Origin: Cohaesibacter sp. ES.047
GTDB lineage: Bacteria > Pseudomonadota > Alphaproteobacteria > Rhizobiales > Cohaesibacteraceae
Direction of reading: 5' to 3'
NCBI RefSeq assembly: GCF_900215505.1
Contig: NZ_LT907844.1
Coordinates: forward strand, 310,001-374,000
DNA length: 64,000 nt
In this document: positions 16,739 to 33,566 of the stretch, piece after piece
Layout of the letters: every line of letters begins with the position of its first letter
Position numbering within the stretch: the first letter of the stretch is position 1
Position numbers and translations under genes: made by a program
Notes under the pieces: model-generated
Told to the model about the DNA's origin: nothing
The model's database searches: none
The model's input: only the letters and a program-made list of their open reading frames with translations

Positions 16739-16740
16739 GA

Positions 16741-18909
16741 TCAGGCCGGCTCCTGCAAGCTCTCGACCAATCTGGTGCCATATCTGAGTTGTTTCTGCAT
16801 GGCCTGCTCGAACTCATCGGCGGGCGCGGGGCGGGAGAAATAGTAGCCTTGCGCTCTGTCGCAATGCTCAAGCAGCAAAGCGTTGGCAACAGCCCTATCC
16901 TCAACGCCTTCTGCGATCACTTCCAGCCCCAGTGAATGGCCCAGATTGATCGTCGCACGTACGATGGCCGTGTCAGACGGGTTCTTGAGCATGTCACGCA
17001 CGAACGACTGGTCGATCTTGAGCCGGTCGACAGGGAAATGCTTGACGTAGGACAGCGAGGAACATCCTGTCCCGAAATCATCAATCGAAATCTTGATACC
17101 CAGCGTGCGCAATTGACTGAGCTGCTGCGCGACTTGCTTGCGATCATGCAGCACGATGCTTTCGGTCAATTCGAGATCGAGGCAATGGGCCGGCATACCG
17201 GTCTCTGCGAGGATCCGGGCGACCAGAAGCGGCACAGACTGGCGCTGGAACTGAACGGGAGACAGGTTTACACCGATGGTGAAGTCCGTATAGCCCTTGG
17301 AGTGCCACTCGGCCCCCTGACGGCAGGCTTCATAGATCACCCATTCGTTGATCGGCATGATCATGCCGTTGCGTTCGGCACGGGCGAGGAAGTCCGCTGG
17401 TGCGATCAGCGCCCCGTCTTCACCCCGCATGCGCAACAGGGCTTCGCAGCCGCATATGTCGCCGCTTTTCAGGTCCACTTGTGGCTGGTAGAGCAACTCG
17501 AAGCGCCGATCGTCAAGCGCGGCCTTAAGGGCATCGTCGACGCGGCGCTCCGCTTCGGCACGGGCATCGAGATTGGTGGCATAAAGACAAAAACCATTGC
17601 CACTCGCCGCCTTGGTCTTGTACATGGCCTGATCGGCATTGCTCATCAGCTTTTCGAAGGAATTGCCATCCTCGGGATGAACGGCAATGCCGATGGACGC
17701 TGTCACACTGGTCGACAGGTCGATAAGCGAGATCGCATCAGGCATCGCGTTGGTGATTGCCTGGCCCAACTGTTCGACATGCGTGTCATTCTTGACGTTG
17801 GTCTGAAGGATGGCGAATTCATCGCCGCCCAAACGCGCAACCAGATCATTCGGACTGGCAACATTGCGCAATTGTTCACCAACCCGAACCAGCAGCTCAT
17901 CCCCGGTTGCGTGGCCGTGCACATCATTGACCTGCTTGAAACCGTCCAGATCGATCAGATGCAATGCAAAGCGGCCATCACCGCGGCGGCAGCGTCCGAT
18001 TTCGCGGTCGACCCGGTCGCGCAGAAGCGACCGGTTTGCAAGGCCCGTCAAACCATCGTGATGGGCCATGTGATGCAAGTGCGTTTCAGCAGCCTTGCGA
18101 TCCGTGATGTCCTGCGACGACGTTACCACACCGATCACCCGCTTGCCTTCGATAAGCGGACTTTTGGTGGTCATGAAGATCTTTCGCGTGCCCTTGCTAC
18201 TGACGATTTCCTCCTCGAAGGAACGCAAATCAGTGCCCGAGGCGATGACCAGTTGATCGATTGCGGTGTTCCGCTCAGCAACCTGCTCACCCAACACCTC
18301 GGTACAGGAGCGGCCAACCACGTCCTCGGCTTTCAAGCCCAGATAATTCGCCTTGTTGGAATTCATGAAGAGGAAACAGCCATCAACATCCGTGGCGCTG
18401 ACCATCACCGGCAGGGTGTTGATCACGTTGACGAGGCGGCTTTCGTTCTCGCGCTGGGTCCAGGCAAGAATGCTTTCGCTTTTCTTGAGAGACTCCAGAA
18501 GCGAACTGGCCCGGTTCGACAGCACCTGACTCTGACGATGCATCTTGAGAAGATTTCGGGCTCGGGCAACGAATTCCCGATGGTCAACAGGACTGATCAA
18601 CAGATCCGTCGCTCCGGCATCAAGCGCCCGCAGTCTGAGATTGCGGTCCTCGAACACGGTCACAACAATGATCGGAACATCGGCGAAGCGAGGATTGGCT
18701 CTGATTTGACCAATGAAATCGTCTCCATGCATGCCGGGCATGTTGAAGTCGGTCAGAATCAGATCCGGGTCATTGTGATCAAGCCATTTGAGGGCATCAT
18801 GCGAGCCCGCGCAGGTCACAACATCCGTTCCGTCCTCTATTCGCCGTGCAATTTGGGAATAAATCTGTCTATTGGTATTTTGATCGTCAACGATCAGAAT
18901 AAGTGCCAT
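16741..18909 (-). CDS. Response regulator with REC-PAS-GGDEF-EAL domains (c-di-GMP turnover)
   Basis: 722 residues. Receiver at about 1-125 with phospho-Asp in LILTDFNMPGM; PAS at about 165-285; GGDEF near 300-450 with intact LVARLGGDEFAIL; EAL near 470-715 with CEALLRM, NLSPVQF, LDLELTES, DDFGTGCSSLSYVK, KIDQSF and EGVE. All main EAL catalytic residues appear present, so phosphodiesterase activity is likely. The inhibitory I-site RxxD before GGDEF reads SPND, so product inhibition at that site is lost. The gene precedes the RpfC-like kinase and takes the place that HD-GYP protein RpfG has in xanthomonads. ATG 18909 follows GGGGCG; the open frame extends to a TTG at 18921. Confidence 0.92.
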   Translation of the reverse strand: MALILIVDDQNTNRQIYSQIARRIEDGTDVVTCAGSHDALKWLDHNDPDLILTDFNMPGMHGDDFIGQIRANPRFADVPIIVVTVFEDRNLRLRALDAGATDLLISPVDHREFVARARNLLKMHRQSQVLSNRASSLLESLKKSESILAWTQRENESRLVNVINTLPVMVSATDVDGCFLFMNSNKANYLGLKAEDVVGRSCTEVLGEQVAERNTAIDQLVIASGTDLRSFEEEIVSSKGTRKIFMTTKSPLIEGKRVIGVVTSSQDITDRKAAETHLHHMAHHDGLTGLANRSLLRDRVDREIGRCRRGDGRFALHLIDLDGFKQVNDVHGHATGDELLVRVGEQLRNVASPNDLVARLGGDEFAILQTNVKNDTHVEQLGQAITNAMPDAISLIDLSTSVTASIGIAVHPEDGNSFEKLMSNADQAMYKTKAASGNGFCLYATNLDARAEAERRVDDALKAALDDRRFELLYQPQVDLKSGDICGCEALLRMRGEDGALIAPADFLARAERNGMIMPINEWVIYEACRQGAEWHSKGYTDFTIGVNLSPVQFQRQSVPLLVARILAETGMPAHCLDLELTESIVLHDRKQVAQQLSQLRTLGIKISIDDFGTGCSSLSYVKHFPVDRLKIDQSFVRDMLKNPSDTAIVRATINLGHSLGLEVIAEGVEDRAVANALLLEHCDRAQGYYFSRPAPADEFEQAMQKQLRYGTRLVESLQEPA

Positions 18910-19086
18910 TTTTCGCCCCAAGTCGTCCGCCCGTCCCCCCTGGATACGGTCGTCTTTGAATCTCGTCGTATTCTAGTTAGAAGAAGTTAAAGCGAGAGGA
19001 ACGTACTCGGTGCTGACCCGTTTTGGAGGCAAAAGATCGCGTCATCGTTAATGAAAAATGAAGCTTGAGGAGGCTGCCCGATATGG

Positions 19087-20562
19087 CTAGCGCAATCCGC
19101 TCCAGGGATCATCAGATTTGCGCGGCCCGGTTGTCTTTACTTTCTGGGACTTAGGTCGGTTCATCTGTTCCGCGCGCGCAATCGCAGCAACAGCTTCCGG
19201 TGCATATTGCAACTGTGCCTTGCGCGCACCTGACACTGTCAACTGGCCTGTGGCCGCCAGGAAACTGTAGATCGCGATCACCGAATCGGCCTTGGAATAG
19301 ATTTCCAGCTCTTGAGCATCGAGCAACGACACCTCCGCATCAAGGATGTCCAAGAAGGACCGTTGCCCCGCCTTTTCCTCGATCTTGATGCCACGCAAGA
19401 GGTCTCGTACGGCGCGAACCTCGGCGGAGGCCTGCTTCAAGGCGACCTGTGCTGCACGGTTCCTGAGAAACTGCTCTCTGGCGTCGGCCTTGATGCGCGC
19501 TGACAGTGCGTGGGAGGCGTATTTCTGCTGATCGCGCAGGGCACGCGCCTTCTGGACATCGGCCATCCGTGCCCCTCCGTCAAAAATCGGCAGGCTGAGA
19601 CGAAGGGAGAAGGCACCTTCCGCCTTGTTGGTTTCCGCATGACTCGAGGCATAGTTGCGGTTGACTTCGCCGCTCACATCAAGCGTCGGCAGAAACGCTC
19701 CTTGTGCGGACTTGACCGCATATTCCGACGCCTTGACGCTTGCGCGGGAGGCGCGCAAATCGGGATGCATCTGCAGGGCCTTGCGCTCTGCTTCCTCAAC
19801 CGTCTGCGGCAAGTGGCTGACTGGCATCTGAGGGAAGATCAATTCCGCCGGTTTGTATCCCACCAACGATTCGTAGCGACCAACGGCAGCCCCCAGATCA
19901 GCCGATGCTCCCTCCAGCGAGGCGCGTGCGCGATAAATCAGTGCGTCGGTTTTGGACAGATCGGTGCGGGTCAGTTCTCCGGCACGAATGCGTGCCTTGG
20001 TGCCGCGCTGCTGATCGAGCAGATTGGTCAGATACCGACGCCGCAGATTGATCATCTTGCGCGCGGCAAAGACGTCCATATAGGCCTTGACCGCTTCGAG
20101 CAGGATCTGGCGCTCCTTGTTGCGGACCTGATAAAGGCTTGAACGTTCCGTATATTTGGAGCTGATCAGGTTGTTGCGGTTCTGGAAGCCATTGAACAGA
20201 CGATGGCTCGCGCTCAAGCCATATTGCGTTGTTCGGGTTCTGGTGCGTCCGCCGGCCTTGAGGCGCTCTTCAACCATGGAATGCCCCGCTGTCGCATTGA
20301 TCTTGGGGGCATAGGCCGATGCTGCCTTGCGGGTGCTTGCCCTGCTCGCTTCGAGCGCTGCCTCTTGAGCCCGAATGTCGGGATTGTTGTCATAGACGTC
20401 GTAAAGCATTTGGGCGAGATTGTCGGCTCTGGCTGTTGCCGCACCCAAGAGGGGCGCAATGATCGCAGCCAAGACCAGACAGGTCCGCACGCCACGGCTG
20501 ATTCCCGTCGCAGTCGCGCTGAAGCAAAGCTCCGATCCCGTGTTGCTGTGTATCAGCTTCAT
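19087..20562 (-). CDS. TolC family outer membrane protein of a type I secretion system
   Basis: 491 residues. The N-terminus has a basic region and a hydrophobic stretch (CLVLAAIIAPLLGAATARA) that reads as a signal peptide ending near residue 47. The mature part shows the TolC pattern: LYDVYDNNPDIRAQEAALEASR, a repeat of long alpha-helical segments, and LIYRARASLEGASADLGAAVGRYE; the second repeat ends ILDAEVSLLDAQELEIYSKADSVIAIYSFLAATGQL. It forms the outer membrane channel for the adaptor and ABC genes upstream on the same strand. I chose ATG 20562; the longer form would use a GTG at 20592. Confidence 0.9.
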   Translation of the reverse strand: MKLIHSNTGSELCFSATATGISRGVRTCLVLAAIIAPLLGAATARADNLAQMLYDVYDNNPDIRAQEAALEASRASTRKAASAYAPKINATAGHSMVEERLKAGGRTRTRTTQYGLSASHRLFNGFQNRNNLISSKYTERSSLYQVRNKERQILLEAVKAYMDVFAARKMINLRRRYLTNLLDQQRGTKARIRAGELTRTDLSKTDALIYRARASLEGASADLGAAVGRYESLVGYKPAELIFPQMPVSHLPQTVEEAERKALQMHPDLRASRASVKASEYAVKSAQGAFLPTLDVSGEVNRNYASSHAETNKAEGAFSLRLSLPIFDGGARMADVQKARALRDQQKYASHALSARIKADAREQFLRNRAAQVALKQASAEVRAVRDLLRGIKIEEKAGQRSFLDILDAEVSLLDAQELEIYSKADSVIAIYSFLAATGQLTVSGARKAQLQYAPEAVAAIARAEQMNRPKSQKVKTTGPRKSDDPWSGLR

Positions 20563-20723
20563 GACTGCTCTACTCTTGACCCAAAGAAGCACGAAGGCGG
20601 CACATCTGTGCCATCTGGTGTCCCGTTGAGGGTCACCGCCCCGATCAATTTGCTTACCAACTCCCTATCACTATTAGGGTTTTATGGTTAACAAGGGCTA
20701 AATGCGGAGTTTTAAATTCAGCG

Positions 20724-22058
20724 TTAGCGCTCGGAGAAGGCGATGTCCATTGACCGATAGACCGGCTTCAGGAGGTAGCGTGCGAGAGACTTTCTGCCCG
20801 TCACGATATCCGCCGTCACCACCATGCCCGGCAGAACCGGATAGGTCTTGTCGCCATGAGACAGTTCATTCTTGTCAAGCGAGACATGCACCTTGAAATA
20901 GGGCTGACCCTGCTCATCCTCAAAGGATGTGGCTGAGATCGTCTTGACCTGTCCTTCGATGGTGCCAAAGACATAGGGATCGAAAGTCGAAACCGTAATC
21001 TTGGCATTCGCTCCCTCATGGATGTGGCCAATATCCTTTGGCTGAACGCGCACTTCGGCGAGGATCTTGCGATCATCTGGCACGATCCGGGCAACGACTT
21101 CACCCGAGCGCACCACCGCACCCACGGTGTTGACCGCCAGTTCCTGAACCAGACCGCTGGTCGGCGCAACGAGATCAAGGCTTTCGACCCGGTCTTGCTG
21201 CTTGGTCAGAAGGCGGTCAAGTTCTGCCAGTTCCGTGGCGCTCTTGGAGCGTTCCTTTGCCAGCTCGCTGCGCAGGGACGCGCGGGTTTCTTCCAACTGG
21301 ATTTCCGCTTCAGTCACCTGTTCCCGTGTGGTCGCGATCTTGCCATCCAGCACATAGAGCCGGGACCGCGCTTCTTCCAGCGAGGCCTGCGCTTCGAGGA
21401 CGGACCGGCGGGAGGCATATTGCTGCTTGAGCAGATTTTCGAGCATGACAAATTGCTCTTTGGCGATCTCGGCGCGCTTGTTGACGCTTTTCTGTTCGGC
21501 AACAGCGGCGTGCCATTCGGCCTTGCGCCGAACCACCTGGGAAGCAAACTTGGCTTCCTCTCGCTCAATGCGGGTCTTTTCAGACAAGAAGACGTTGTAT
21601 TGGGAATTTGCCAGATTGGGATAGGAGTGAAACAGGGAGCCAAAATCCGGCTGATCCTTGCCATCCATAAGCGCATCAAGGCTGGCGATGGACATTTTGA
21701 GACCCGCAGCCCGGACCACCAGTTGATCCCGCTCGCTTTCGGTCGCTGTAGAGCGCAGGCGCATGATCGGCTGGCCAGCGGCAACCCGGTCCCCTTCGTG
21801 GACCAGAACCTGCTGGACATAGCCCCCTTCCAGATGCTGAACCGTCTGCACCTGAGTGGTGGGCTGGACCTGTCCCATCGCATGGGTCACCTCCAGCACA
21901 GAGGTAACGAAAGCCCAGATGACAAATGCCGCCATGAAAAGGACGCATCCCGACACCACATAGGCAAATAGCTGGGGCGGTTGCTCCGCTTCCAGCGCCA
22001 GAGGCAATGTCAGAGTCCGCGCGTCAAGCTCACTCTGTTTTGACTGAAACAACTTCAA
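20724..22058 (-). CDS. HlyD family type I secretion periplasmic adaptor
   Basis: About 444 residues. A single transmembrane helix near residues 30-52 follows a short cytoplasmic tail; the periplasmic part begins with VQTVQHLEGGYVQQVLVHEGDRVAAGQPIMRL (lipoyl half), then a long helical hairpin, the second lipoyl half (LVAPTSGLVQELAVNTVGAVVRSGEVVARIVPDD) and a beta-barrel region ending LLPGMVVTADI-like (VLPGMVVTADIVTGRKS), the family signature. It links the ABC subunits to the TolC-like channel. The apparent start is a TTG at 22058, with no in-frame ATG close by; translation may be modest. It lies 127 bp from the ABC gene and 161 bp from the TolC-like gene. Confidence 0.92.
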   Translation of the reverse strand: MKLFQSKQSELDARTLTLPLALEAEQPPQLFAYVVSGCVLFMAAFVIWAFVTSVLEVTHAMGQVQPTTQVQTVQHLEGGYVQQVLVHEGDRVAAGQPIMRLRSTATESERDQLVVRAAGLKMSIASLDALMDGKDQPDFGSLFHSYPNLANSQYNVFLSEKTRIEREEAKFASQVVRRKAEWHAAVAEQKSVNKRAEIAKEQFVMLENLLKQQYASRRSVLEAQASLEEARSRLYVLDGKIATTREQVTEAEIQLEETRASLRSELAKERSKSATELAELDRLLTKQQDRVESLDLVAPTSGLVQELAVNTVGAVVRSGEVVARIVPDDRKILAEVRVQPKDIGHIHEGANAKITVSTFDPYVFGTIEGQVKTISATSFEDEQGQPYFKVHVSLDKNELSHGDKTYPVLPGMVVTADIVTGRKSLARYLLKPVYRSMDIAFSER

Positions 22059-22185: not shown

Positions 22186-24675
22186 TCAGGCGACCGCTTT
22201 GTTGAACGAATCCAGCTGTGGCAAGACCTGCTCGGGAGGACCATTAAGGATGACCTGTCCTTCATGCAACACGATGATGCGATCGGCTTCCTTCATGTGG
22301 CTGGGGCGCTGAGTGGTGAACAGCGTGGTCGCCCTGCCCTTCAGGGTTGCCAGATGGGCCATGAACTTGCGATCGGTCTCGAAGTCCAGATAGTTGGCGG
22401 GTTCATCAAGGAAATAGTAGGACGCATGCTTGGAAAAGCTGCGGCAGAGCAACAGCTTCTGCTTCAGGCTGTCGGCCATCTGATGCACCGTTTCGGCCTT
22501 CAGCCGCGTGTCCAGAGCACCGTCCGGCAGATCGGGATGATCCTCGGTGATATTGAAGTGCGTCATCAATGCCTGCATCTCATTCCGCATCGTCTTTGGA
22601 TCATTGAGATGGAAATTCTGCTCAACAGTGCCGTAGAAGAAGGTGGGATGATCTGGCTGGTAGCTGATTTCGGCGCGCAATTCGCCAAGATCCATCTGCC
22701 GGATGTCGAGGTGATCGAAACCGACAACGCCCGCAACCGGCCGGTAGAGTCCCGCCAGAAGCTTGAGGAAGGTCGACTTACCGCCGCCACTGGGGCCTGT
22801 TATGGCGACCAGCTCACCGGGATTGATGACGACATTGGCATTCTTGATCGCCGCATCGGACGCCTGCGGATAGCGGAAGCTGAGATTCTTGGTCGAGATA
22901 TGGCCGCTGAATTTGCGCGAAATGCTGGGCACAGCACCGGGAGTGCGTTCCGGTTGCATGCGCATCAGATTGTTCACCATGCGCACGGCTTCGATGAGCT
23001 TGCCAACGCGGGACAGGCTGAGGAACGCATTCTGCAGCGGCGACAGGACCCGCCAGATCAGGGCCATGATTGCAATCAATCCGCCAACGCCCAGATCGCC
23101 AGCCATGACCATCAGCGTGCCGACGCTCAGCGTGGTCAGTCCGGCGGTCATCGACATGGACTGACTGATGATCTGGATTTTCTGAGAGAAGTGCTGCGCC
23201 CGGAAATCAAGGGCGGCGAAACTCGCCGCAGCGCGTTCGAAGCGTTCCTGCCAGATCTGCTCGGCACCGGTGTTGCGGATGTCGCGATGCATCAGGAACA
23301 GTTCCATCATGATGTTCTGTTTCTTGGTCTTGGCATCACCGGACTGCATGGTCTGGCGCTTGGCTACCGGAATGCTGAAAGCGGCAAGAATGAAATAGCC
23401 CGCGAGCAGAACCGCCGGAATCGCCGCGATCCACCCCCCAATCATGGCAATGGCGATGATGAAGACGAACACGAACGGCAGATCGAGCACCGCTGTGCCC
23501 AGCGACCCCAGAAAGATTTCTCTGAGCTTCTCGAACTGACGCAAGCGCGACAACTGCGCTCCGATGGTCGCATTCTGGACCATGCCGTAAGACATGAAGA
23601 GCAGGCGCTGGAAGATCTCAACGGACAAGGCGGTATCGAAACGCGCTCCGATATAGGCCAGAACCCGGGTTCTCAGCCTTCGCAGGGCATAGTCAGCAGC
23701 AATGATCAGACCGACCCCGGCGATGAACATCACAAGACTGCCCGGCGCCTTTGATGGGATGGCATAGCCATAGACAGCCATGATGAAAATCGGCACGGCA
23801 AGGGCAGCAAGGTTGATGCCGAAATTGATCACGAACAGCGATAAAAACAGCCGCCGAAAGGCCGTTGCGGCATGGGTAACCCAACCGAAAGACTGCACGA
23901 AGCGGGTCTGATGAGCCAGATCGATCGAATTGATCAGATAGATCGTCTCGGTGCGATCAAGACAGCTGATGTCTTCTTCGGCGCCGGTTGCTCCATTAAA
24001 GCAGGTGACCGTGCCCTCACCGTGATTAACGGACAGGAGAATACGCACCGTCCCGTTCTGATCCTCGAACAGGCATGGCAGCTTCTCGTTCGACAGCGAT
24101 GCAAGGCGGGTTTCGCCCGCGATCGCAGCAAAATTCAGACGGGAAAGCACGGCCCTGAGGCCGTTCATGTCATGAATGGTATTGAAGTGCGGCAGGGCCT
24201 GCGCCAGATGGCGCCCGTCGCCGCCCCAGCCGAGAAGCGCGAGAAGCACCTGCAGGCAGCGCCCAGCGGAACTGTGGTAGTCGATCCCGGACCACCGTTC
24301 CTTCACGCCTATCAAGGTCTCGAAGTCCGTGAACGCAGGGCCTTGGGCTTCTGTCCCGGCAGCCGCTCCTTTTGACAGCAAATCACTCGGCGCAGCATCG
24401 AACTGTATGTCCTCTGCGCTAAATTGGATCTCCTGCTCCGCATCAGGTTGCGCTCTTTCAGCGACCTGATCCGTTTCAAAGGCTTGCACATTCGGGTCCG
24501 ATGCGACCTCTGCTTTCCGCACTGGCTTCACTTCATCCGCCGATGTTGCGAAATTGCGTTCGGCAGAATAGCGCGAAAGCTCTTTCAGTGAGATTCCACC
24601 GGATTGCAGCTTGCGAATGAATTCGGACTGGCCATTGTCATCGGGCGATTGCGATCCTGGGTCTTTTTCGCTCAT
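22186..24675 (-). CDS. Type I secretion ABC transporter subunit with C39-like domain
   Basis: 829 residues. Residues 1-115 are acidic and low in complexity. Residues about 125-260 look like a C39-peptidase-like domain without the catalytic Cys (ALLGWGGDGRHLAQ), as in HlyB-type exporters of RTX proteins. Five to six membrane helices follow, then an ABC domain with intact Walker A GPSGGGKST (about residue 627) and Walker B YYFLDEPANYLD. The ABC signature is degenerate (HQMADSLKQ rather than LSGGQ) and the H-loop histidine is replaced (TTQRPS). Its start overlaps by four bases the end of a second ABC gene, so the two likely make a heterodimer. Substrate is probably the divergent giant adhesin. 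Confidence 0.88.
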   Translation of the reverse strand: MSEKDPGSQSPDDNGQSEFIRKLQSGGISLKELSRYSAERNFATSADEVKPVRKAEVASDPNVQAFETDQVAERAQPDAEQEIQFSAEDIQFDAAPSDLLSKGAAAGTEAQGPAFTDFETLIGVKERWSGIDYHSSAGRCLQVLLALLGWGGDGRHLAQALPHFNTIHDMNGLRAVLSRLNFAAIAGETRLASLSNEKLPCLFEDQNGTVRILLSVNHGEGTVTCFNGATGAEEDISCLDRTETIYLINSIDLAHQTRFVQSFGWVTHAATAFRRLFLSLFVINFGINLAALAVPIFIMAVYGYAIPSKAPGSLVMFIAGVGLIIAADYALRRLRTRVLAYIGARFDTALSVEIFQRLLFMSYGMVQNATIGAQLSRLRQFEKLREIFLGSLGTAVLDLPFVFVFIIAIAMIGGWIAAIPAVLLAGYFILAAFSIPVAKRQTMQSGDAKTKKQNIMMELFLMHRDIRNTGAEQIWQERFERAAASFAALDFRAQHFSQKIQIISQSMSMTAGLTTLSVGTLMVMAGDLGVGGLIAIMALIWRVLSPLQNAFLSLSRVGKLIEAVRMVNNLMRMQPERTPGAVPSISRKFSGHISTKNLSFRYPQASDAAIKNANVVINPGELVAITGPSGGGKSTFLKLLAGLYRPVAGVVGFDHLDIRQMDLGELRAEISYQPDHPTFFYGTVEQNFHLNDPKTMRNEMQALMTHFNITEDHPDLPDGALDTRLKAETVHQMADSLKQKLLLCRSFSKHASYYFLDEPANYLDFETDRKFMAHLATLKGRATTLFTTQRPSHMKEADRIIVLHEGQVILNGPPEQVLPQLDSFNKAVA

Positions 24676-26495
24676 GCGGACCTCCCGATCGCCTGTCTTG
24701 TCTGTTGAGCCAGAACGGATTTTTCTGAACCGGCTCCCCTGGCATCAGCGGCGTCTCTTTGCTGGCCTCCATGCACTTGCAACTGGCCTTCCTTGAGGAT
24801 GAACTGCTTGTCTGCCATGGCAAGGAAAGAGGGACGGTTTGAGAGGAAAACGATGGTCATCGTGCCGCGCAATTGCTCCAGTCCCTTCCTCAGAAGGTTG
24901 TCCGCACGTTGATCGAGCAGGGCATTGGCCTCCTCAAGCACCAGAATACTCGGTTTCTGGGCGATGGCGCGGGCAATGCAGATACGCTGGCGGAAGCTGG
25001 GCGGCAGTGTTTCGTTGCCGCCTGTCCCGATGTTCATGTCATACCCATGCGGCAATTGCTGAATGTCGCTTTCAAGGCCGATCAATTGTGTTGCCTCACG
25101 CGCTCTTTGCAGTCCGTCGCGCGGGTTGAACAGGGTCAGGTTTTCAAGGATCGTTCCGCTGAAAATCGCAGGACTGTTGGGCACATAGGCGATGGAGGAG
25201 GACAGATCCGCATCGATCAATTCGGCACTTGAGTACCCACCGATCAAGACCTCGCCAACCTCTGGATCGAGCTTGCCGCGAAGGATCTCGAGAAACTGGT
25301 GATCATCGCGCGGCAGATTGCCCTTGAGCCCGATGATGCTGCCGTGCGGGATGGTCAGCGAAACCCGATATGGCTTGTTGTTAGGCATATACGAGTTGAT
25401 TATCACATTGCGAACACTGATCGCGCCGTCATCAAGAGTGATCCTCTCTGCGATCTGATCCGGGTTGGGATTGATGCTGAGCAATTCATCGACATTCTGT
25501 TTGACCAGATCGAAGTTGCTCATTTCACTCCAAGATCGCACCGACCGGACAAGCACTTCCACCGCTCGCCCGCCAAGCAGCAGGCAGCAGGCAAGAGACC
25601 CGATCGACTGGGTTCCCTCGATGACGAGCAGAGCACCGCTACTCACGATTGTGACCATGGTAACGGCGGCAAACACCGCACTCAGGGACTGGGTCTCTCC
25701 ATCCATGCGCACCGAATTGTGAAAGGCGACGGCAATGGATTCCTGCAAGCGCTCATATCGCCGCATCATTTGCGGCTCGCAGGCCATGGTCTTGATCGTC
25801 TCGATCCCAGACAATGCCTCGATCACGAAATCATATTTGCGCCGGTCGAGTTGTTGCCGCTCGTCCTGCAGGAGCTGGATTTCCCGAGCCTTGACCAGCA
25901 GTCGCCAGGCAAAGATGCCAAACAGACAGACGAGCAGCCCAGCGATCACCGGACTGACAATTGCCATGACCGCGAGGAAAACAAAAATGAATGGCAGGTC
26001 AACCAGCCCCATCCGGGCCGGACCGGCAAACATCCGTGCCGTGGCCGAGAGCGCATTCATGCGGTCGATATGTGTGCTTGCCGCTTCCTGTTCGACGGCT
26101 TCGGGTGGCGCGTGCATCGCACGTCTGACCGCTTCCACACCGGCCACATAGTCGATGTACGATGATGACCAGCCGGAGATATGCGACCGGATTACCTTAA
26201 GGGTCGTGTCGACAAGCATCACGATCACCAGACCGCCCATCAGGTAGAACAGCGTGTCGTATGATAAATTGGGGATAATTCGGTCATAGATCTGCAAAAT
26301 CACCAAAGGCATGCCGAGGCCAAGCATGTTGATGACAAAAGAGGCCGCCATGATCCGCTTGGGAACCTTGATCAGATCCGCAAACCAGGCCGACTGCATG
26401 GAGCGAGGCGGCTGAAAGATATCGTGCAGGCGCTCGAGCTTTTGCCCGAAACGTGACCGATTGCCGCGCTGCCCGTCTGGATATGGTTCTGTCAT
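24672..26495 (-). CDS. Type I secretion ABC transporter subunit with degenerate nucleotide-binding domain
   Basis: About 607 residues. A transmembrane domain of about six helices (for example FVINMLGLGMPLVILQIYDRIIP) matches PrtD-like exporters. The ABC domain has lost its Walker A: the expected GxxGxGK reads GLKGNLPRDDH, without the lysine. The signature region is LPPSFRQRICIARAIA, Walker B is SILVLEEANALLD with the Glu kept, and the H-loop reads LSNRPS without His. It overlaps the next ABC gene by ATGA, which implies coupled translation and equal amounts. I infer it is the non-catalytic half of a heterodimer. The start is uncertain: ATG 26495 follows GGGATCA; other in-frame options are ATG 26525 and GTG 26561. 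Confidence 0.85.
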   Translation of the reverse strand: MTEPYPDGQRGNRSRFGQKLERLHDIFQPPRSMQSAWFADLIKVPKRIMAASFVINMLGLGMPLVILQIYDRIIPNLSYDTLFYLMGGLVIVMLVDTTLKVIRSHISGWSSSYIDYVAGVEAVRRAMHAPPEAVEQEAASTHIDRMNALSATARMFAGPARMGLVDLPFIFVFLAVMAIVSPVIAGLLVCLFGIFAWRLLVKAREIQLLQDERQQLDRRKYDFVIEALSGIETIKTMACEPQMMRRYERLQESIAVAFHNSVRMDGETQSLSAVFAAVTMVTIVSSGALLVIEGTQSIGSLACCLLLGGRAVEVLVRSVRSWSEMSNFDLVKQNVDELLSINPNPDQIAERITLDDGAISVRNVIINSYMPNNKPYRVSLTIPHGSIIGLKGNLPRDDHQFLEILRGKLDPEVGEVLIGGYSSAELIDADLSSSIAYVPNSPAIFSGTILENLTLFNPRDGLQRAREATQLIGLESDIQQLPHGYDMNIGTGGNETLPPSFRQRICIARAIAQKPSILVLEEANALLDQRADNLLRKGLEQLRGTMTIVFLSNRPSFLAMADKQFILKEGQLQVHGGQQRDAADARGAGSEKSVLAQQTRQAIGRSA

Positions 26496-26759
26496 TGATC
26501 CCAATTTCTCGGTTATTCGGCCCATGTCGCCCGGGCTTGGTGCGCCAAAAGCACAAACCACTCTCTCTTTATGCGCCTAGTCTCTTGAACTTTTCTTAAC
26601 CAAGTTTGAACTTTTCCGTCCAAAATGCCGTTATAGATAGTCTGAAATGTTATTTTTACGTATTCCTAACCAATTAAAAGAACCACCGATTAATCAGCCT
26701 CACGATAGCTTTCTGTCCAATTGCCTGCCCCAAGGGGCCAAGAAGCTAAGGACAGGTCT
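26496..26759. promoter_or_regulatory. Divergent promoter region between secretion operon and adhesin gene
   Basis: About 260 bp, clearly AT-richer than either gene (runs such as TTATTTTTACG and CCAATTAAAAG). The shared intergenic region suggests joint control of exporter and substrate. I cannot assign a specific operator. Confidence 0.5.
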
Positions 26760-29700
26760 ATGGCTGACACCTCGACTCCCAACATCAAGATCAACAGCAG
26801 TTCCACCAAACTAGAAGCCAACCGCGCACAGGACTCGGCCCAGAAAGCCGATCAGTACAAGGGTGGCAGTGATTACGACACCGGTGATCACATTGCAGCG
26901 CGTCAGGACATCCTGAACCCGAACCTGCATTATGGTGTAACAGTCGAGAGCGAACTGCCATTTACCGATACGCAAAGCGGAGCTGCGGATGACAGTGGCG
27001 CGCGCGTATCTGGCGAGCCGATCAACAATGGCGCGCCTCAAACCACACCAAGTGCCTTTGCCAACGGTCCCCAATCTCCTCTTTCTTCGACAGGCCCGTC
27101 AGCCCCTGCCGAAGGTGCGTTCGCGATGTCCGGCGGCCTTGAGGGCGTTCAATCCATCGACAATGGTGCTGCTTTGGCCTCGGCTTCTCCGTTTTCTGCT
27201 CAAGCCACCAACACGGGTGCGGCACCCAGCTTTGCGCCTGCAAACACTGCAAGAAATGATGGTGCGGTATCGACCCCGGGTGGCGGAGGCAGTGGTGGCG
27301 AAACCAACCATGCCGTGACCGCTGAAGACGCCGCCGAGACCACAGGTGAGAATACCCCGCTCTCAAGCAGTGTCACCGCGACGGATCTTGATGGCGATGC
27401 GATCGCCTATAGCCTTGATGGCCAGCCATCCGAGGGTGCTGTCACCTTCAATCCCGATGGCTCCTACAGCTTTGATCCCGGCACCGACTTTGATGATCTG
27501 GCCGTCGGCGAAAGCCGCACCGTCAGCTTCAACTTCACGGCTGACGATGGCAGGGGCTCCACCGATAGCGGCACCGTCAACATCGAGGTGACCGGCACCA
27601 ATGATGCCCCCACCGCCGTGGACCTCACCGCCAACACCATCGATGAGAATGATGCGGGGGCCGTGATCGGCACCCTCAGCACCACCGATGTCGATAGCTC
27701 CGACAGCCACAGTTACACCGTCTCCGATAATCGCTTCGAAGTGGTTGATGATGGCGCGGGCAATATGGTGCTCAAGCTCAAGGAAGGCGTGACGCTCGAT
27801 CATGAGACGGAAGCTTCCGTCCCTCTCACCGTCACCACCGACGATGGCCATAACGGCACCTTCAGCGAAGACTTCACCATCAATGTCGCCGACCTCAATG
27901 AGGCCGTCACCGCTGATGATGCGGCAGAGATCACCGGTGAGAATACCCCGCTCTCCAGCAGTGTCACCGCGACGGACCTTGATGGCGATGCGATTGCCTA
28001 TAGCCTTGATGGTCAGCCGTCCGAAGGTGCTGTCACCTTCAATCCCGATGGCTCCTACAGCTTTGATCCCGGCACCGACTTTGATGATCTGGCCGTCGGC
28101 GAAAGCCGCACCGTCAGCTTCAACTTCACGGCTGACGATGGCAGGGGCTCCACCGATAGCGGCACCGTCAACATCGAGGTGACCGGCACCAATGATGCCC
28201 CCACCGCCGTGGACCTCACCGCCAACACCATCGATGAGAATGATGCGGGGGCCGTGATCGGCACCCTCAGCACCACCGATGTCGATAGCTCCGACAGCCA
28301 CAGTTACACCGTCTCCGATAATCGCTTCGAAGTGGTTGATGATGGCGCGGGCAATATGGTGCTCAAGCTCAAGGAAGGCGTGACGCTCGATCATGAGACG
28401 GAAGCTTCCGTCCCTCTCACCGTCACCACCGACGATGGCCATAACGGCACCTTCAGCGAAGACTTCACCATCAATGTCGCCGACCTCAATGAGGCCGTCA
28501 CCGCTGATGATGCGGCAGAGATCACCGGTGAGAATACCCCGCTCTCCAGCAGTGTCACCGCGACGGACCTTGATGGCGATGCGATTGCCTATAGCCTTGA
28601 TGGTCAGCCGTCCGAAGGTGCTGTCACCTTCAATCCCGATGGCTCCTACAGCTTTGATCCCGGCTCCGACTTTGATGATCTCGCCGTTGGCGAAAGCCGT
28701 ACCGTCAGCTTTAAATTCACCGCCGATGATGGCAATGGCTCCACCGATGACGGCACCGTCAACATCGAGGTGACCGGCACCAATGATGCCCCCACCGCCG
28801 TGGACCTCACCGCCAACAGCATTGATGAGAATGATGCGGGGGCCGTGATCGGCACCCTCAGCACCACCGATGTCGATAGCTCCGACAGCCACAGTTACAC
28901 CGTCTCCGATAATCGCTTCGAAGTGGTTGATGATGGCGCGGGCAATATGGTGCTCAAGCTCAAGGAAGGCGTGACGCTCGATCATGAGACGGAAGCTTCC
29001 GTCCCTCTCACCGTCACCACCGACGATGGCCATGACGGCACCTTCAGCGAGAACTTCACCATCAATGTCGCTGACCTCAATGAGGCCGTGACCGCTGAAG
29101 ACGCCGCCGAGACCACAGGTGAGAATACCCCGCTCTCAAGCAGTGTCACCGCGACGGATCTTGATGGCGATGCGATCGCCTATAGCCTTGATGGCCAGCC
29201 ATCCGAGGGTGCTGTCACCTTCAATCCCGATGGCTCCTACAGCTTTGATCCCGGCACCGACTTTGATGATCTGGCCGTCGGCGAAAGCCGCACCGTCAGC
29301 TTCAACTTCACGGCTGACGATGGCAGGGGCTCCACCGATAGCGGCACCGTCAACATCGAGGTGACCGGCACCAATGATGCCCCCACCGCCGTGGACCTCA
29401 CCGCCAACACCATCGATGAGAATGATGCGGGGGCCGTGATCGGCACCCTCAGCACCACCGATGTCGATAGCTCCGACAGCCACAGTTACACCGTCTCCGA
29501 TAATCGCTTCGAAGTGGTTGATGATGGCGCGGGCAATATGGTGCTCAAGCTCAAGGAAGGCGTGACGCTCGATCATGAGACGGAAGCTTCCGTCCCTCTC
29601 ACCGTCACCACCGACGATGGCCATAACGGCACCTTCAGCGAAGACTTCACCGTCAATGTCGCCGACCTCAATGAGGCCGTCACCGCTGATGATGCGGCAG

Positions 29701-32700
29701 AGATCACCGGTGAGAATACCCCGCTCTCCAGCAGTGTCACCGCGACGGACCTTGATGGCGATGCGATTGCCTATAGCCTTGATGGTCAGCCGTCCGAAGG
29801 TGCTGTCACCTTCAATCCCGATGGCTCCTACAGCTTTGATCCCGGCTCCGACTTTGATGATCTCGCCGTTGGCGAAAGCCGTACCGTCAGCTTTAAATTC
29901 ACCGCCGATGATGGCAATGGCTCCACCGATGACGGCACCGTCAACATCGAGGTGACCGGCACCAATGATGCCCCCACCGCCGTGGACCTCACCGCCAACA
30001 GCATTGATGAGAATGATGCGGGGGCCGTGATCGGCACCCTCAGCACCACCGATGTCGATAGCTCCGACAGCCACAGTTACACCGTCTCCGATAATCGCTT
30101 CGAAGTGGTTGATGATGGCGCGGGCAATATGGTGCTCAAGCTCAAGGAAGGCGTGACGCTCGATCATGAGACGGAAGCTTCCGTCCCTCTCACCGTCACC
30201 ACCGACGATGGCCATGACGGCACCTTCAGCGAGAACTTCACCATCAATGTCGCTGACCTCAATGAGGCCGTGACCGCTGAAGACGCCGCCGAGACCACAG
30301 GTGAGAATACCCCGCTCTCAAGCAGTGTCACCGCGACGGATCTTGATGGCGATGCGATCGCCTATAGCCTTGATGGCCAGCCATCCGAGGGTGCTGTCAC
30401 CTTCAATCCCGATGGCTCCTACAGCTTTGATCCCGGCACCGACTTTGATGATCTGGCCGTCGGCGAAAGCCGCACCGTCAGCTTCAACTTCACGGCTGAC
30501 GATGGCAGGGGCTCCACCGATAGCGGCACCGTCAACATCGAGGTGACCGGCACCAATGATGCCCCCACCGCCGTGGACCTCACCGCCAACACCATCGATG
30601 AGAATGATGCGGGGGCCGTGATCGGCACCCTCAGCACCACCGATGTCGATAGCTCCGACAGCCACAGTTACACCGTCTCCGATAATCGCTTCGAAGTGGT
30701 TGATGATGGCGCGGGCAATATGGTGCTCAAGCTCAAGGAAGGCGTGACGCTCGATCATGAGACGGAAGCTTCCGTCCCTCTCACCGTCACCACCGACGAT
30801 GGCCATAACGGCACCTTCAGCGAAGACTTCACCGTCAATGTCGCCGACCTCAATGAGGCCGTCACCGCTGATGATGCGGCAGAGATCACCGGTGAGAATA
30901 CCCCGCTCTCCAGCAGTGTCACCGCGACGGACCTTGATGGCGATGCGATTGCCTATAGCCTTGATGGTCAGCCGTCCGAAGGTGCTGTCACCTTCAATCC
31001 CGATGGCTCCTACAGCTTTGATCCCGGCTCCGACTTTGATGATCTCGCCGTTGGCGAAAGCCGTACCGTCAGCTTTAAATTCACCGCCGATGATGGCAAT
31101 GGCTCCACCGATGACGGCACCGTCAACATCGAGGTGACCGGCACCAATGATGCCCCCACCGCCGTGGACCTCACCGCCAACAGCATTGATGAGAATGATG
31201 CGGGGGCCGTGATCGGCACCCTCAGCACCACCGATGTCGATAGCTCCGACAGCCACAGTTACACCGTCTCCGATAATCGCTTCGAAGTGGTTGATGATGG
31301 CGCGGGCAATATGGTGCTCAAGCTCAAGGAAGGCGTGACGCTCGATCATGAGACGGAAGCCTCCGTCCCTCTCACCGTCACCACCGACGATGGCCATCAC
31401 GGCACCTTCAGCGAAGACTTCACCATCAATGTCGCTGATATCGACGAAGGCGTGGTTGCTCAGAATGAAAATGGCACGACGACGGAAGATGACGCCCTGA
31501 ATAGTGTTGCGCATGCCCAGAGCGTGAATGGAGGCGACATCAGCTACAGTCTCACCGGCCAGCCGGGAGAAGGGTCCGTTGTCATGAATCCGGACGGGTC
31601 TTACACGTTTGATCCGGGCCAGGATTTCCAGGACCTCAACCTCCATGAAAGCCGGACGGTAACATTTGAGTATTCCGCAACGGATAGCAGCGGCCAAAAC
31701 GGCACCGGTACCGTGACGATCGAGGTTAGCGGCACCAATGATGCGCCAACTGCAATCGAGATTTCCAATTCGAGTTTCGACGAGAACAGCGATGGTTCCA
31801 TCATCGGCACTCTCTCGACGACCGATGTGGATACCAATGACAGTCACACCTACACCGTCAATGATAACCGCTTTGAGGTGGTCGATGATGGCGCGGGCAA
31901 CATGGTCCTGAAAGTGAAGGACGGCGTCAGCTTCGATCATGAGACCGATCAGAGCGTTGATGTTGTGGTCACCACCACTGATCAGGGCGGTCTCAGTCAC
32001 AGCGAAAGCCTGACGATCAATGTGGCAGACGTGAATGAAGGCCTCTCGCTGAGCGCGGAAGGATCCTACAATTTCCTCTACAACGGCAGCTTCGAGCATT
32101 TCAGCAATGGCGAGCATGGCGGCGGCGAGGGAACCGGATGGTTCGCCGGCGCAACCATTGACGGCTGGTCACAGACCGACATCGATGTGCACGAAGCTGG
32201 GCACCAAGGCTTGGGCGCAACTGATGGCGAATACCATGTCGATCTGGCAGGTACGACCAACGGGACCTTGACCCGCGAGATGAACGGGCTGGAAGATGAC
32301 CAGACCTACACCCTGGCCATGGACCTCAAATCCCGCGGATCGAACGGCCACGGCACTGGCAATGAGCAAGACGCCCTTGGACAGTCGGTCGTCAAGATCG
32401 TCTGGAATGGCGAAGTCATCGCAACCGTGGACCCGGCAGAAGACGGATTGGGCTGGCACACCTACAACTTTGATATCGTTGGCGGGTCTGGAGATGGCTC
32501 CGATACCATCAACTTCATCGAGGTGGGTTCGGAAAACAATTTCGGCACGCTCCTTGATAACTTCCGGATCACCGACTCCGAGGGCTTCGGCGTTCTGGAG
32601 AATGAAGCGGGAGCCGAGGTTGCTACTCTTGCTGTTGCCGATCCCGATGCGGGGGATAGTCATACCTATGTCGTCTCCGATGACCGCTTCGAGGTTGTCC

Positions 32701-33566
32701 AGTTGGATGGTGAGACCGTTCTGAAGTTGAAAGACGGCATCAGCCTTGATCACGAAACAACGGCAAATATCGATGTCACCGTTACGGTCACAGATAGCGG
32801 GGGCAACAGCGACAGTCAGGTGTTGGGCATTCAAGTGGGTGACGTCAATGACGCACCGACCGAGGTTATCCTTGATGGCAGTCAGGTGACCGAGAATGAG
32901 GCTGGTGATGTCATCGGCACGTTGACGACGACGGACGCCGATGCTCATGAGGCCTTTGACTACAGCGTCTCGGATAACCGTTTCGAAGTGGTCGATGACG
33001 GCACAGGCACCATGATGCTCAAACTCAAGGATGGAGAATCTCTTGATGCTGGTAGCGAGCCGACAATCAATCTGGCGATCACGTCGACAGACAGTGGTGG
33101 CGAGTCGGTTACCGATTCCTTCGATCTGTCGGTGCAGGATGTAACCCACGGCACTGACAGCAACGATACCATTCAAGGGTCCGGTCTGGACGATGTTCTC
33201 TATGGTGAGGGCGGCAATGACAGTCTTTATGGTGGGGCTGGCAATGATACGCTCATCGGCGGCGACGGAAACGACTTCCTGTCGGGTGGTGACGGTGATG
33301 ATGCCTTCATCTACATGGTGGGCGACGGCAACGACACGATCGACGGCGGGGCTGGCGGAGACTGGACGGACAGCATCGAGATCTTTGCGGCTGACGGATC
33401 GGCTTCAACCGAGATGGGAACCGATTGGACCATCTCGCTTACCCATGGCTCGGTAGAGACGGTCGGCACTGATGAGTTGCAGCTCTCGGATGATGCCTCG
33501 GGCACCATCGATTTTGACGATGGCAGCCAAATCGCCTTCGACAATGTCGAGCGGATCGGCTGGTGA
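26760..33566 (+). CDS. Giant VCBS/cadherin-repeat RTX adhesin, probable type I secretion substrate
   Basis: 2268 residues, very acidic and poor in Cys. No N-terminal signal peptide. Residues about 1-183 are a low-complexity retention or linker region. Seven almost identical 197-residue units follow (about 184-1560), each a VCBS half ([20 protein letters not shown] ... [13 protein letters not shown]) plus a cadherin-like half ([19 protein letters not shown] ... [12 protein letters not shown]). An eighth, diverged unit comes next, then a DUF642/galactose-binding-like domain (about 1767-1941, YNGSFEHF ... LDNFRI), two further cadherin-like units, and C-terminal RTX nonapeptides ([20 protein letters not shown], about 2142-2181) with a terminal aliphatic region ending VERIGW. 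ATG 26760 follows AAGGA. The divergent exporter fits it as the transporter. Role: surface attachment or biofilm, inferred. Confidence 0.93.
27310..31443 (+). repeat. Seven tandem 591-bp repeats within the adhesin gene
   Basis: Units of 591 bp (197 codons) begin at about 27310, 27901, 28492, 29083, 29674, 30265 and 30856. Two types can be told apart. Type A has ETTGEN and [10 protein letters not shown]; type B has EITGEN, PGSDFDD and [10 protein letters not shown]. The order is A, a mixed unit (ITGEN with the GRG block), B, A, B, A, B, so units 4-5 and 6-7 form a near-perfect 1182-bp duplication. Even synonymous positions are shared, which points to recent unequal crossing-over or gene conversion. 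Confidence 0.95.

Follow-up and report, generated by a model that had tools for sequence, protein, structure and literature searches.

The window, the whole stretch of 64,000 nucleotides analysed here (Cohaesibacter sp. ES.047, contig NZ_LT907844.1, positions 310,001 to 374,000), carries two adjoining ABC half-transporter genes, designated S2 and S1. Both are uninterrupted open frames on the (-) strand, followed on that strand by genes for an HlyD-type adaptor and then a TolC-type channel (Table 1). An in-frame ATG at 26495 ('MTEPYP') offers S2 an alternative start. The genes overlap by the four bases ATGA (24672-24675), as an earlier sequence-only reading of this DNA had noted, and a 4-base overlap recurs in 14 of the 16 members of the window's clade, two Maritalea pairs overlapping by 0 and 1 base.

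Table 1. Features of the secretion locus, with positions in the window, and of related pairs in Phaeobacter
Feature	Position	Strand	Remarks
S2	24672..26561	-	629 aa from GTG; half-transporter; altered NBD; without C39-like domain
S1	22186..24675	-	829 aa, ATG; half-transporter; P-loop-bearing NBD; putative N-terminal C39-like domain
HlyD-type membrane fusion protein	20724..22058	-	TIGR01843 358.4 bits, above cut-off 208.65
TolC-type outer membrane channel	19087..20592	-	OEP 176.7 bits; TIGR01844 218.1 bits, just below cut-off 225.15
Giant cadherin/VCBS-repeat protein, presumed substrate	26721..33566	+	Divergent, upstream of S2; two RTX stretches
S1 Walker A GPSGGGKST, residues 627-635	22771..22797	-	Intact; 7 of 9 columns invariant in 16 clade members
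S1 Q-loop position, Asp675 for Gln	22651..22653	-	Asp in 16 of 16
S1 signature position MADSLKQ, not LSGGQ	22459..22479	-	1 of 7 columns invariant in clade
S1 Walker B Asp757-Glu758 (FLDEP)	22402..22407	-	Intact by alignment; Asp-Glu invariant in clade
S1 H-loop position, Gln789 for His	22309..22311	-	Gln in 16 of 16
S2 Walker A position GNLPRDDHQ	25296..25322	-	P-loop lost; 3 of 9 columns invariant
S2 signature position LPPSFRQ	24987..25007	-	5 of 7 columns invariant
S2 Walker B position Glu543-Glu544 (LEEA)	24930..24935	-	Asp replaced by Glu; catalytic Glu kept
S2 H-loop position, Asn575 for His	24837..24839	-	By alignment
Phaeobacter pair loci	L154 7313-11103 (P. gallaeciensis plasmid pP128_a); L266 3313-7103; L267 3241-7031

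Both proteins match ABC_membrane and ABC_tran, the latter with 82.9 bits in S1 and 33.7 bits in S2. Among NCBIfam profiles S2 matches TIGR03375 best, with 293.8 bits and an alignment that starts at profile position 135, and S1 aligns to the same profile from position 6 with 415.2 bits; both scores fall below the cut-off of 693.1, and the profile match suggests that S1 possesses a C39-like domain. Named relatives of S2 come from Cohaesibacter (six records, 68-75% identity) and from Maritalea porphyrae (two records, 59 and 62%). The AlphaFold model of S2 is usable only in its NBD, with blocks mostly near 80 pLDDT (57 to 88), where strands and helices follow the ABC order despite the lost P-loop; a Foldseek search with this model returned HlyB first (7sgr), though at low TM scores owing to the poor quality of the TMD model. 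The model of S1 is poor (mean pLDDT 49.6).

The giant repeat protein divergent from S2 has its better RTX stretch near the C-terminus, and its position suggests that it is an adhesin exported by S1/S2. The operon has the HlyD-type and TolC-type partners of LssB/LapB-type secretion, with a presumed repeat/RTX substrate nearby. A TolC gene likewise adjoins the pair in many relatives, though not in all. By a composition rule, an acidic repeat-like frame lies divergently within 2.5 kb upstream of S2 at 72 of 108 loci, the window included and a few of the frames being far off or short; another frame was found at 28 loci and none at 8, four of which had less than 800 bases of room. Near its N-terminus the presumed substrate has the stretch SDYDTGD, which is also found in other members of the clade, followed there by RQDILNPN; a related NDF...D motif, limited by lineage, occurs in the first 200 residues of 12 of 59 presumed substrates, where shuffling gave a mean of 0.17. 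On the same strand and further downstream than the TolC gene (14144-18921), a hybrid histidine kinase of 864 aa and a response regulator-PAS-GGDEF-EAL protein are encoded, and control of the adhesin by c-di-GMP through these genes is possible. Two genes for LapG-like proteases (PF06035) reside elsewhere in the genome (G000:C1:4835958-4836431 and 3281927-3282376).

That motifs pair across the dimer is established for ABC proteins. Each site draws Walker A, Walker B and the Q- and H-loops from one NBD and its signature from the partner NBD, as set out in part of a recent review (PMC7756269). Pairwise alignment with a canonical exporter from a genome of the same family (L107) placed the motif columns of the window pair and bore out the residue assignments of the sequence-only reading: S1 keeps Walker A and Walker B and has neither LSGGQ nor the H-loop His, while S2 has lost the Walker A Lys and the H-loop His and keeps the Walker B Glu. 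To these losses the alignment added that of the S1 Q-loop Gln (Asp675), which had been missing from the earlier list. The two errors that might have undone those assignments were also addressed. Normal motifs elsewhere in the proteins were rejected, as whole-protein scans gave none that fits: S1 has a single P-loop pattern, at residue 627, and two SGG, one in the N-terminal tail (residue 25) and one inside Walker A, and S2 has no P-loop pattern and no SGG anywhere. Sequencing error is excluded for the key letters by the recurrence of the same residues in all 16 clade members, a comparison that includes the window and in which two of the others are near-identical MAGs. In every one of them, S1 has the P-loop Lys, the Q-loop Asp and the H-loop Gln, and S2 has Asp for Lys, Pro for the signature Ser, Glu for the Walker B Asp and Asn for His. 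Site A, in which the cassette of S1 meets the signature loop of S2, is thus invariantly altered in this clade, with Gln in the H-loop, Asp in the Q-loop and LPP(S/G)F as signature.

Motifs were counted over 120 scoreable pairs, three of the 123 complete ones (L078, L102, L172) having been dropped for a gap at a key column. The P-loop Lys is present in 118 S1 and 87 S2 subunits, and the LSGG signature in no S1 and a single S2 (L082, FSGGFLQ). Lys, Glu and His occur together in 62 S1 and 20 S2 cassettes, in both cassettes of 18 pairs and in neither of 56. With 106 pairs, a site having Lys, Glu, His, signature Ser and second Gly was seen in five (site A in L052, L157 and L165; site B, the S2 cassette with the S1 signature, in L095 and L181), none with LSGGQ, and hence the loss is not complete everywhere; L161 has nearly complete motifs. 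Twelve of the 106 have no site with both the P-loop Lys and the catalytic Glu, one of them (L172) being cut off at Walker B. As controls, 20 loci were hand-picked from single-looking matches, 19 from genomes outside the class and one (G324) within it. Nineteen proved single, and all 19 are canonical, with Lys, Glu, His and either LSGGQ (18) or LSAGQ (1). The twentieth, L285 (1937-5630), turned out to be a pair outside the class and was kept out of the 120; its S2 has no P-loop and both of its signatures are replaced, with Glu and His kept. Canonical exporters in the alignment (18 rows, which include other ABC exporters of the window's genome, two rows being the same gene) hold Lys, signature Ser, second Gly and His in 18 of 18 and Glu in 17. 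Left out of that alignment were L002, L003, L004 and L007 (copies), L142 and L143 (the window itself) and the own-genome exporters of L145 and L152, both complete frames of which have a P-loop and an LSGGQ-type signature by pattern scan. With no S1 and one S2 carrying LSGG and the singles canonical, both composite ATP sites of S1/S2 are non-consensus, and the full canonical motif set of a single homodimerizing subunit is found in neither protein. Loss of the S2 P-loop showed a nominal association with loss of the signature Gly of S1 (Fisher p 0.024) and of S2 itself (3e-8), values in which the window's clade weighs heavily; tree-independent pairs showed nothing for S2 P-loop loss and S1 signature loss.

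The pair is widely distributed. In the order sample, the query P0002 matches 69 of 297 genomes at 74 places; seven places are single canonical exporters (L105-L111), each with LSGGQRQ. Six genomes have singles only, and pair-type places, a few cut at contig ends, occur in 63 of the 297; contig ends also account for the presence of one half only at L057, L077, L101 and L104. The same query matches 43 of 385 genomes of the class sample, and S2 adjoins S1 in all 38 inspected besides the window's own (G392, G519, G589 and G600 lie outside this set), with S1 cut by contig ends at L160 and L172. At L173 (6325-8019), a stop splits the S2 relative into two frames, reflecting a pseudogene or a sequencing error. 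Across the phylum sample, the S2 of a relative matches 154 of 398 genomes, singles and pairs mixed; inspection of 20 places from 18 genomes (15 outside the class, 3 within) revealed both halves at 19. The exception to pairing is L245 (6642-9110, outside the class), where an S2-like gene stands alone, without S1, immediately next to an HlyD gene. The order S2-S1-HlyD recurs in Alphaproteobacteria and in other Pseudomonadota, and at seven loci (L074, L153, L168, L260-L263) S2 and S1 are fused; HlyD-like frames flank the fused gene on both sides at L260 and L263. Named members of the branch include Phaeobacter and Azospirillum sp. B510, in which AZL_RS33650 is one fused gene, and those inspected carry generic ABC names in annotation.

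Two quick maximum-likelihood trees recovered S1 as one group (support of 100), S2 as one group (100) and the two together (98 and 96), so that the pair forms the conserved branch for which the sequence-only reading had proposed a phylogenetic check. The next branch, with an SH-aLRT support of 93 in one of these trees, unites 12 single-gene exporters, and six of these that were scanned score 924.1 to 963.1 bits with TIGR03375, all above the cut-off and so of LssB type by this curated threshold; four other singles comprise three of HlyB type and one (L269) over neither cut-off. None of ten pair proteins scanned, the window's two and eight from relatives (247.8 to 518.0 bits), reaches 693.1, and in the quick tree the S1+S2 branch lies beside, not among, the LssB-type singles. 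By eye, the same clusters reappear among the S1 and among the S2 sequences of the trees, which fits joint descent of the halves, and long rows (Phaeobacter, L285) are of unsure placement. On a thinned FastTree tree of 107 rows, the fewest changes, counted in either direction, numbered 8 for Lys, 16 for His and 9 for Glu in S2, and 6 for Glu and 9 for His in S1. The pair thus goes back to a single ancient duplication next to the type I secretion ABC transporters of LssB type, and phylogeny and motif counts show that LSGGQ was lost or replaced early in both halves. The separately decayed sites of the earlier reading are therefore no local or recent decay and belong to an old and widespread lineage; its view that the pair is unusual among type I exporters stands by comparison with single-gene ones, canonical in 19 of 19, and not within the two-gene branch, in which such sites are the rule.

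Conservation of the motifs was compared by column entropy over 104 pairs outside the window's clade, the rows being related and the values descriptive. Walker A (1.02 in S1 vs 1.73 in S2), the Q-loop (1.20 vs 2.01) and the H-loop (1.35 vs 1.66) are better kept in S1, the signature is better kept in S2 (2.32 vs 1.86), and thinning to 85 pairs changed these values little. The same crossing is seen within the 16-member clade for Walker A (0.10 in S1 vs 1.25 in S2) and the signature (0.75 vs 0.23), and it is what would be predicted if a single site, with its cassette from S1 and its signature from S2, were maintained. Walker B, about equal outside the clade (1.59 vs 1.56), and the Q-loop, slightly better kept in S2 within it (0.34 in S1 vs 0.24), speak against this model. 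Among 14 Cohaesibacter/Maritalea sequences, the median dN/dS of S1 was 0.096 for the TMD, 0.098 for the NBD and 0.175 for the C39-like region, that of S2 was 0.072 for the TMD and 0.147 for the NBD, and the N-terminal tails gave 0.40 and 0.46, all rough values since dS is near saturation and 46 to 67 of 91 comparisons were usable, by region. The NBDs of both proteins are thus under purifying selection.

The furthest departure was encountered in Phaeobacter, where the P-loop Lys is absent from both subunits in P. gallaeciensis P128 and DSM 26640 and in P. piscinae P36; a pattern scan found no P-loop in four P. gallaeciensis/P. piscinae proteins or in the DSM 26640 pair. These pairs adjoin an HlyD gene and a gene for a PA14-domain repeat protein, and homologues of their S2 with 91.9-100% identity occur in 11 plasmid records, the motifs having been checked in three. 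Comparison of P. gallaeciensis with P. piscinae gave a dN/dS of 0.133 for S1 (NBD 0.186) and 0.104 for S2 (NBD 0.120), indicating that this pair, too, is under purifying selection. The S1 of these strains has Arg at the position of the P-loop Lys, which weakens any claim that it binds no nucleotide.

We regard it as fairly probable that S2 and S1 form an obligate heterodimeric type I secretion engine that arose by one duplication and in which site A was kept while site B drifted. The two proteins would be the obligate halves of an inner-membrane engine that exports the neighbouring giant repeat adhesin via the HlyD-like and TolC-like proteins encoded downstream. By the conservation pattern, site A stayed under more constraint while site B drifted; in the window's version, ATP would be bound by site A alone and, with Gln for the switch His and a changed Q-loop, this site may serve as an ATP switch that is slow or chiefly structural. 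The substrate may be handled in its unfolded state by the C39-like domain of S1, and its calcium-driven folding on the outer side may help to pull it from the cell. That two different subunits form the transporter, with no more than one ATP site, which combines the cassette of S1 with the signature of S2, had been proposed from the sequence alone, and the gene pairing, the seven fusions, the recurring tree clusters and the crosswise conservation lend support to it. The proposal needs amendment as to the surviving site, which is itself non-consensus in signature, Q-loop and H-loop and may or may not hydrolyse ATP.

Other explanations were weighed against this heterodimeric engine with a partly preserved site A. 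Were the odd residues simply tolerated, site A could hydrolyse ATP at normal rates as in an ordinary heterodimeric exporter; it retains both Walker motifs, Lys, Glu and His persist together in just over half of S1 subunits (62 of 120), and the part of the review concerned with MRP1 records wild-type-like transport with Gln or Asn in the H-loop of NBS2 (PMC7756269). However, the window combines changes in all three of signature, Q-loop and H-loop, and the human exporters treated in the same review have one degenerate site of two (PMC7756269), making this explanation quite unlikely. Unlikely, too, is a translocator free of ATP hydrolysis, with the NBD dimer as a scaffold or gate and calcium-dependent folding of RTX and repeat domains outside the cell as the chief driver. 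The calcium-folding ratchet is reportedly a published idea, and such a translocator would accommodate both the Phaeobacter pairs, under purifying selection without a P-loop Lys in either subunit, and the 12 of 106 pairs in which no site combines this Lys with the catalytic Glu. An HlyB mutant with Ala in the H-loop (printed as H622A) showed no ATP hydrolysis in the assay, in the portion of the report concerned (PMC6558041). Against it, the S1 P-loop Lys is present in 118 of 120 pairs and the Walker B Asp-Glu of S1 is invariant in the window's clade, so that nucleotide binding looks selected in most members, and the Arg of Phaeobacter S1 tells against it as well.

It is very improbable that S1/S2 act only with a separate canonical ABC subunit that provides the ATPase activity, such as within a mixed multi-engine complex: the HlyB/HlyD complex is said to be a pump with three ABC transporters, and the genome holds at least 151 ABC_tran matches, but further ABC exporter genes were found near the pair only at L181 among the loci examined, where relatives of the query were looked for. 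Decay into non-functional genes is extremely improbable. The losses in both cassettes and the weaker constraint on the NBD of S2 than on its TMD (0.147 vs 0.072) could be read in that way, but both halves are open in 16 of 16 clade members, dN/dS is low, the replacement residues are invariant, the operon is conserved, and the stops counted in four same-genus matches lie outside the S1/S2 frames; the candidate was rejected on the dN/dS values and open frames. The pair is a genuine variant of the type I secretion machinery, long established and apparently maintained by selection.

The engines of type I secretion are generally regarded as homodimers driven by ATP. Given that both composite sites are non-consensus across nearly all of the branch, and that the Phaeobacter plasmid pairs are under purifying selection without a P-loop Lys, it is conceivable, though doubtful, that the branch is giving up ATP hydrolysis or has already done so in some lineages, with adhesins passing through a gated channel; if so, giant adhesins would be pulled through such a channel by folding outside the cell, or be powered in a new way. 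A natural series is available that runs from L161 with nearly complete motifs, through the window with one altered site, to Phaeobacter with no P-loop Lys, and it makes testable both how much ATP hydrolysis the export of a giant protein requires and what purpose a degenerate site has. The findings also bear on annotation, as the named members inspected are filed under generic ABC names.

Compared with known systems, the pair most resembles the LssB/LapB-type transporters: TIGR03375 is the best family match of both proteins, S1 has the putative C39-like region, and HlyD and TolC partners and an adjoining repeat protein are shared. It differs in consisting of two unequal genes instead of one, in having no LSGGQ, and in scoring below 693.1 bits where the neighbouring singles reach 924 to 963. 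The NHLP bacteriocin exporter pair (TIGR03796/TIGR03797) likewise involves two adjacent ABC genes in a type I-like system, a case from Legionella being described in part of one paper (PMC6959600). This identity was rejected, as S1 (184.4/174.8 bits) and S2 (164.3/138.6 bits) score far below the cut-offs of 853.3/709.4 and TIGR03375 matches better. The portions covered of a review of type I secretion describe no heterodimeric engine (PMC8277102). No published description of such a pair was found in the open-licence literature, most subscription papers lying outside this scope. Pdr5 of yeast is a drug pump of another ABC subfamily. According to part of the review of degenerate sites, it resembles the pair in having one site with every motif changed, including the P-loop Lys and the H-loop His, and differs in that its second site is canonical (PMC7756269). 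In the full-length human degenerate exporters covered there, the degenerate site is always NBS1, and the NBD2 signature is changed in all (PMC7756269). Unequal NBDs and one better-kept composite site are also shared with TM287/288, TmrAB, TAP, MRP1 and CFTR (the last two full-length). All of these combine one degenerate with one working site. This arrangement, attributed to heterodimeric exporters in the same part of the review (PMC7756269), contrasts with the replacement of both signatures in S1/S2. Neither in the window nor in its family does the other site have the consensus, and S1/S2 would further be distinguished from these exporters as engines of protein secretion.
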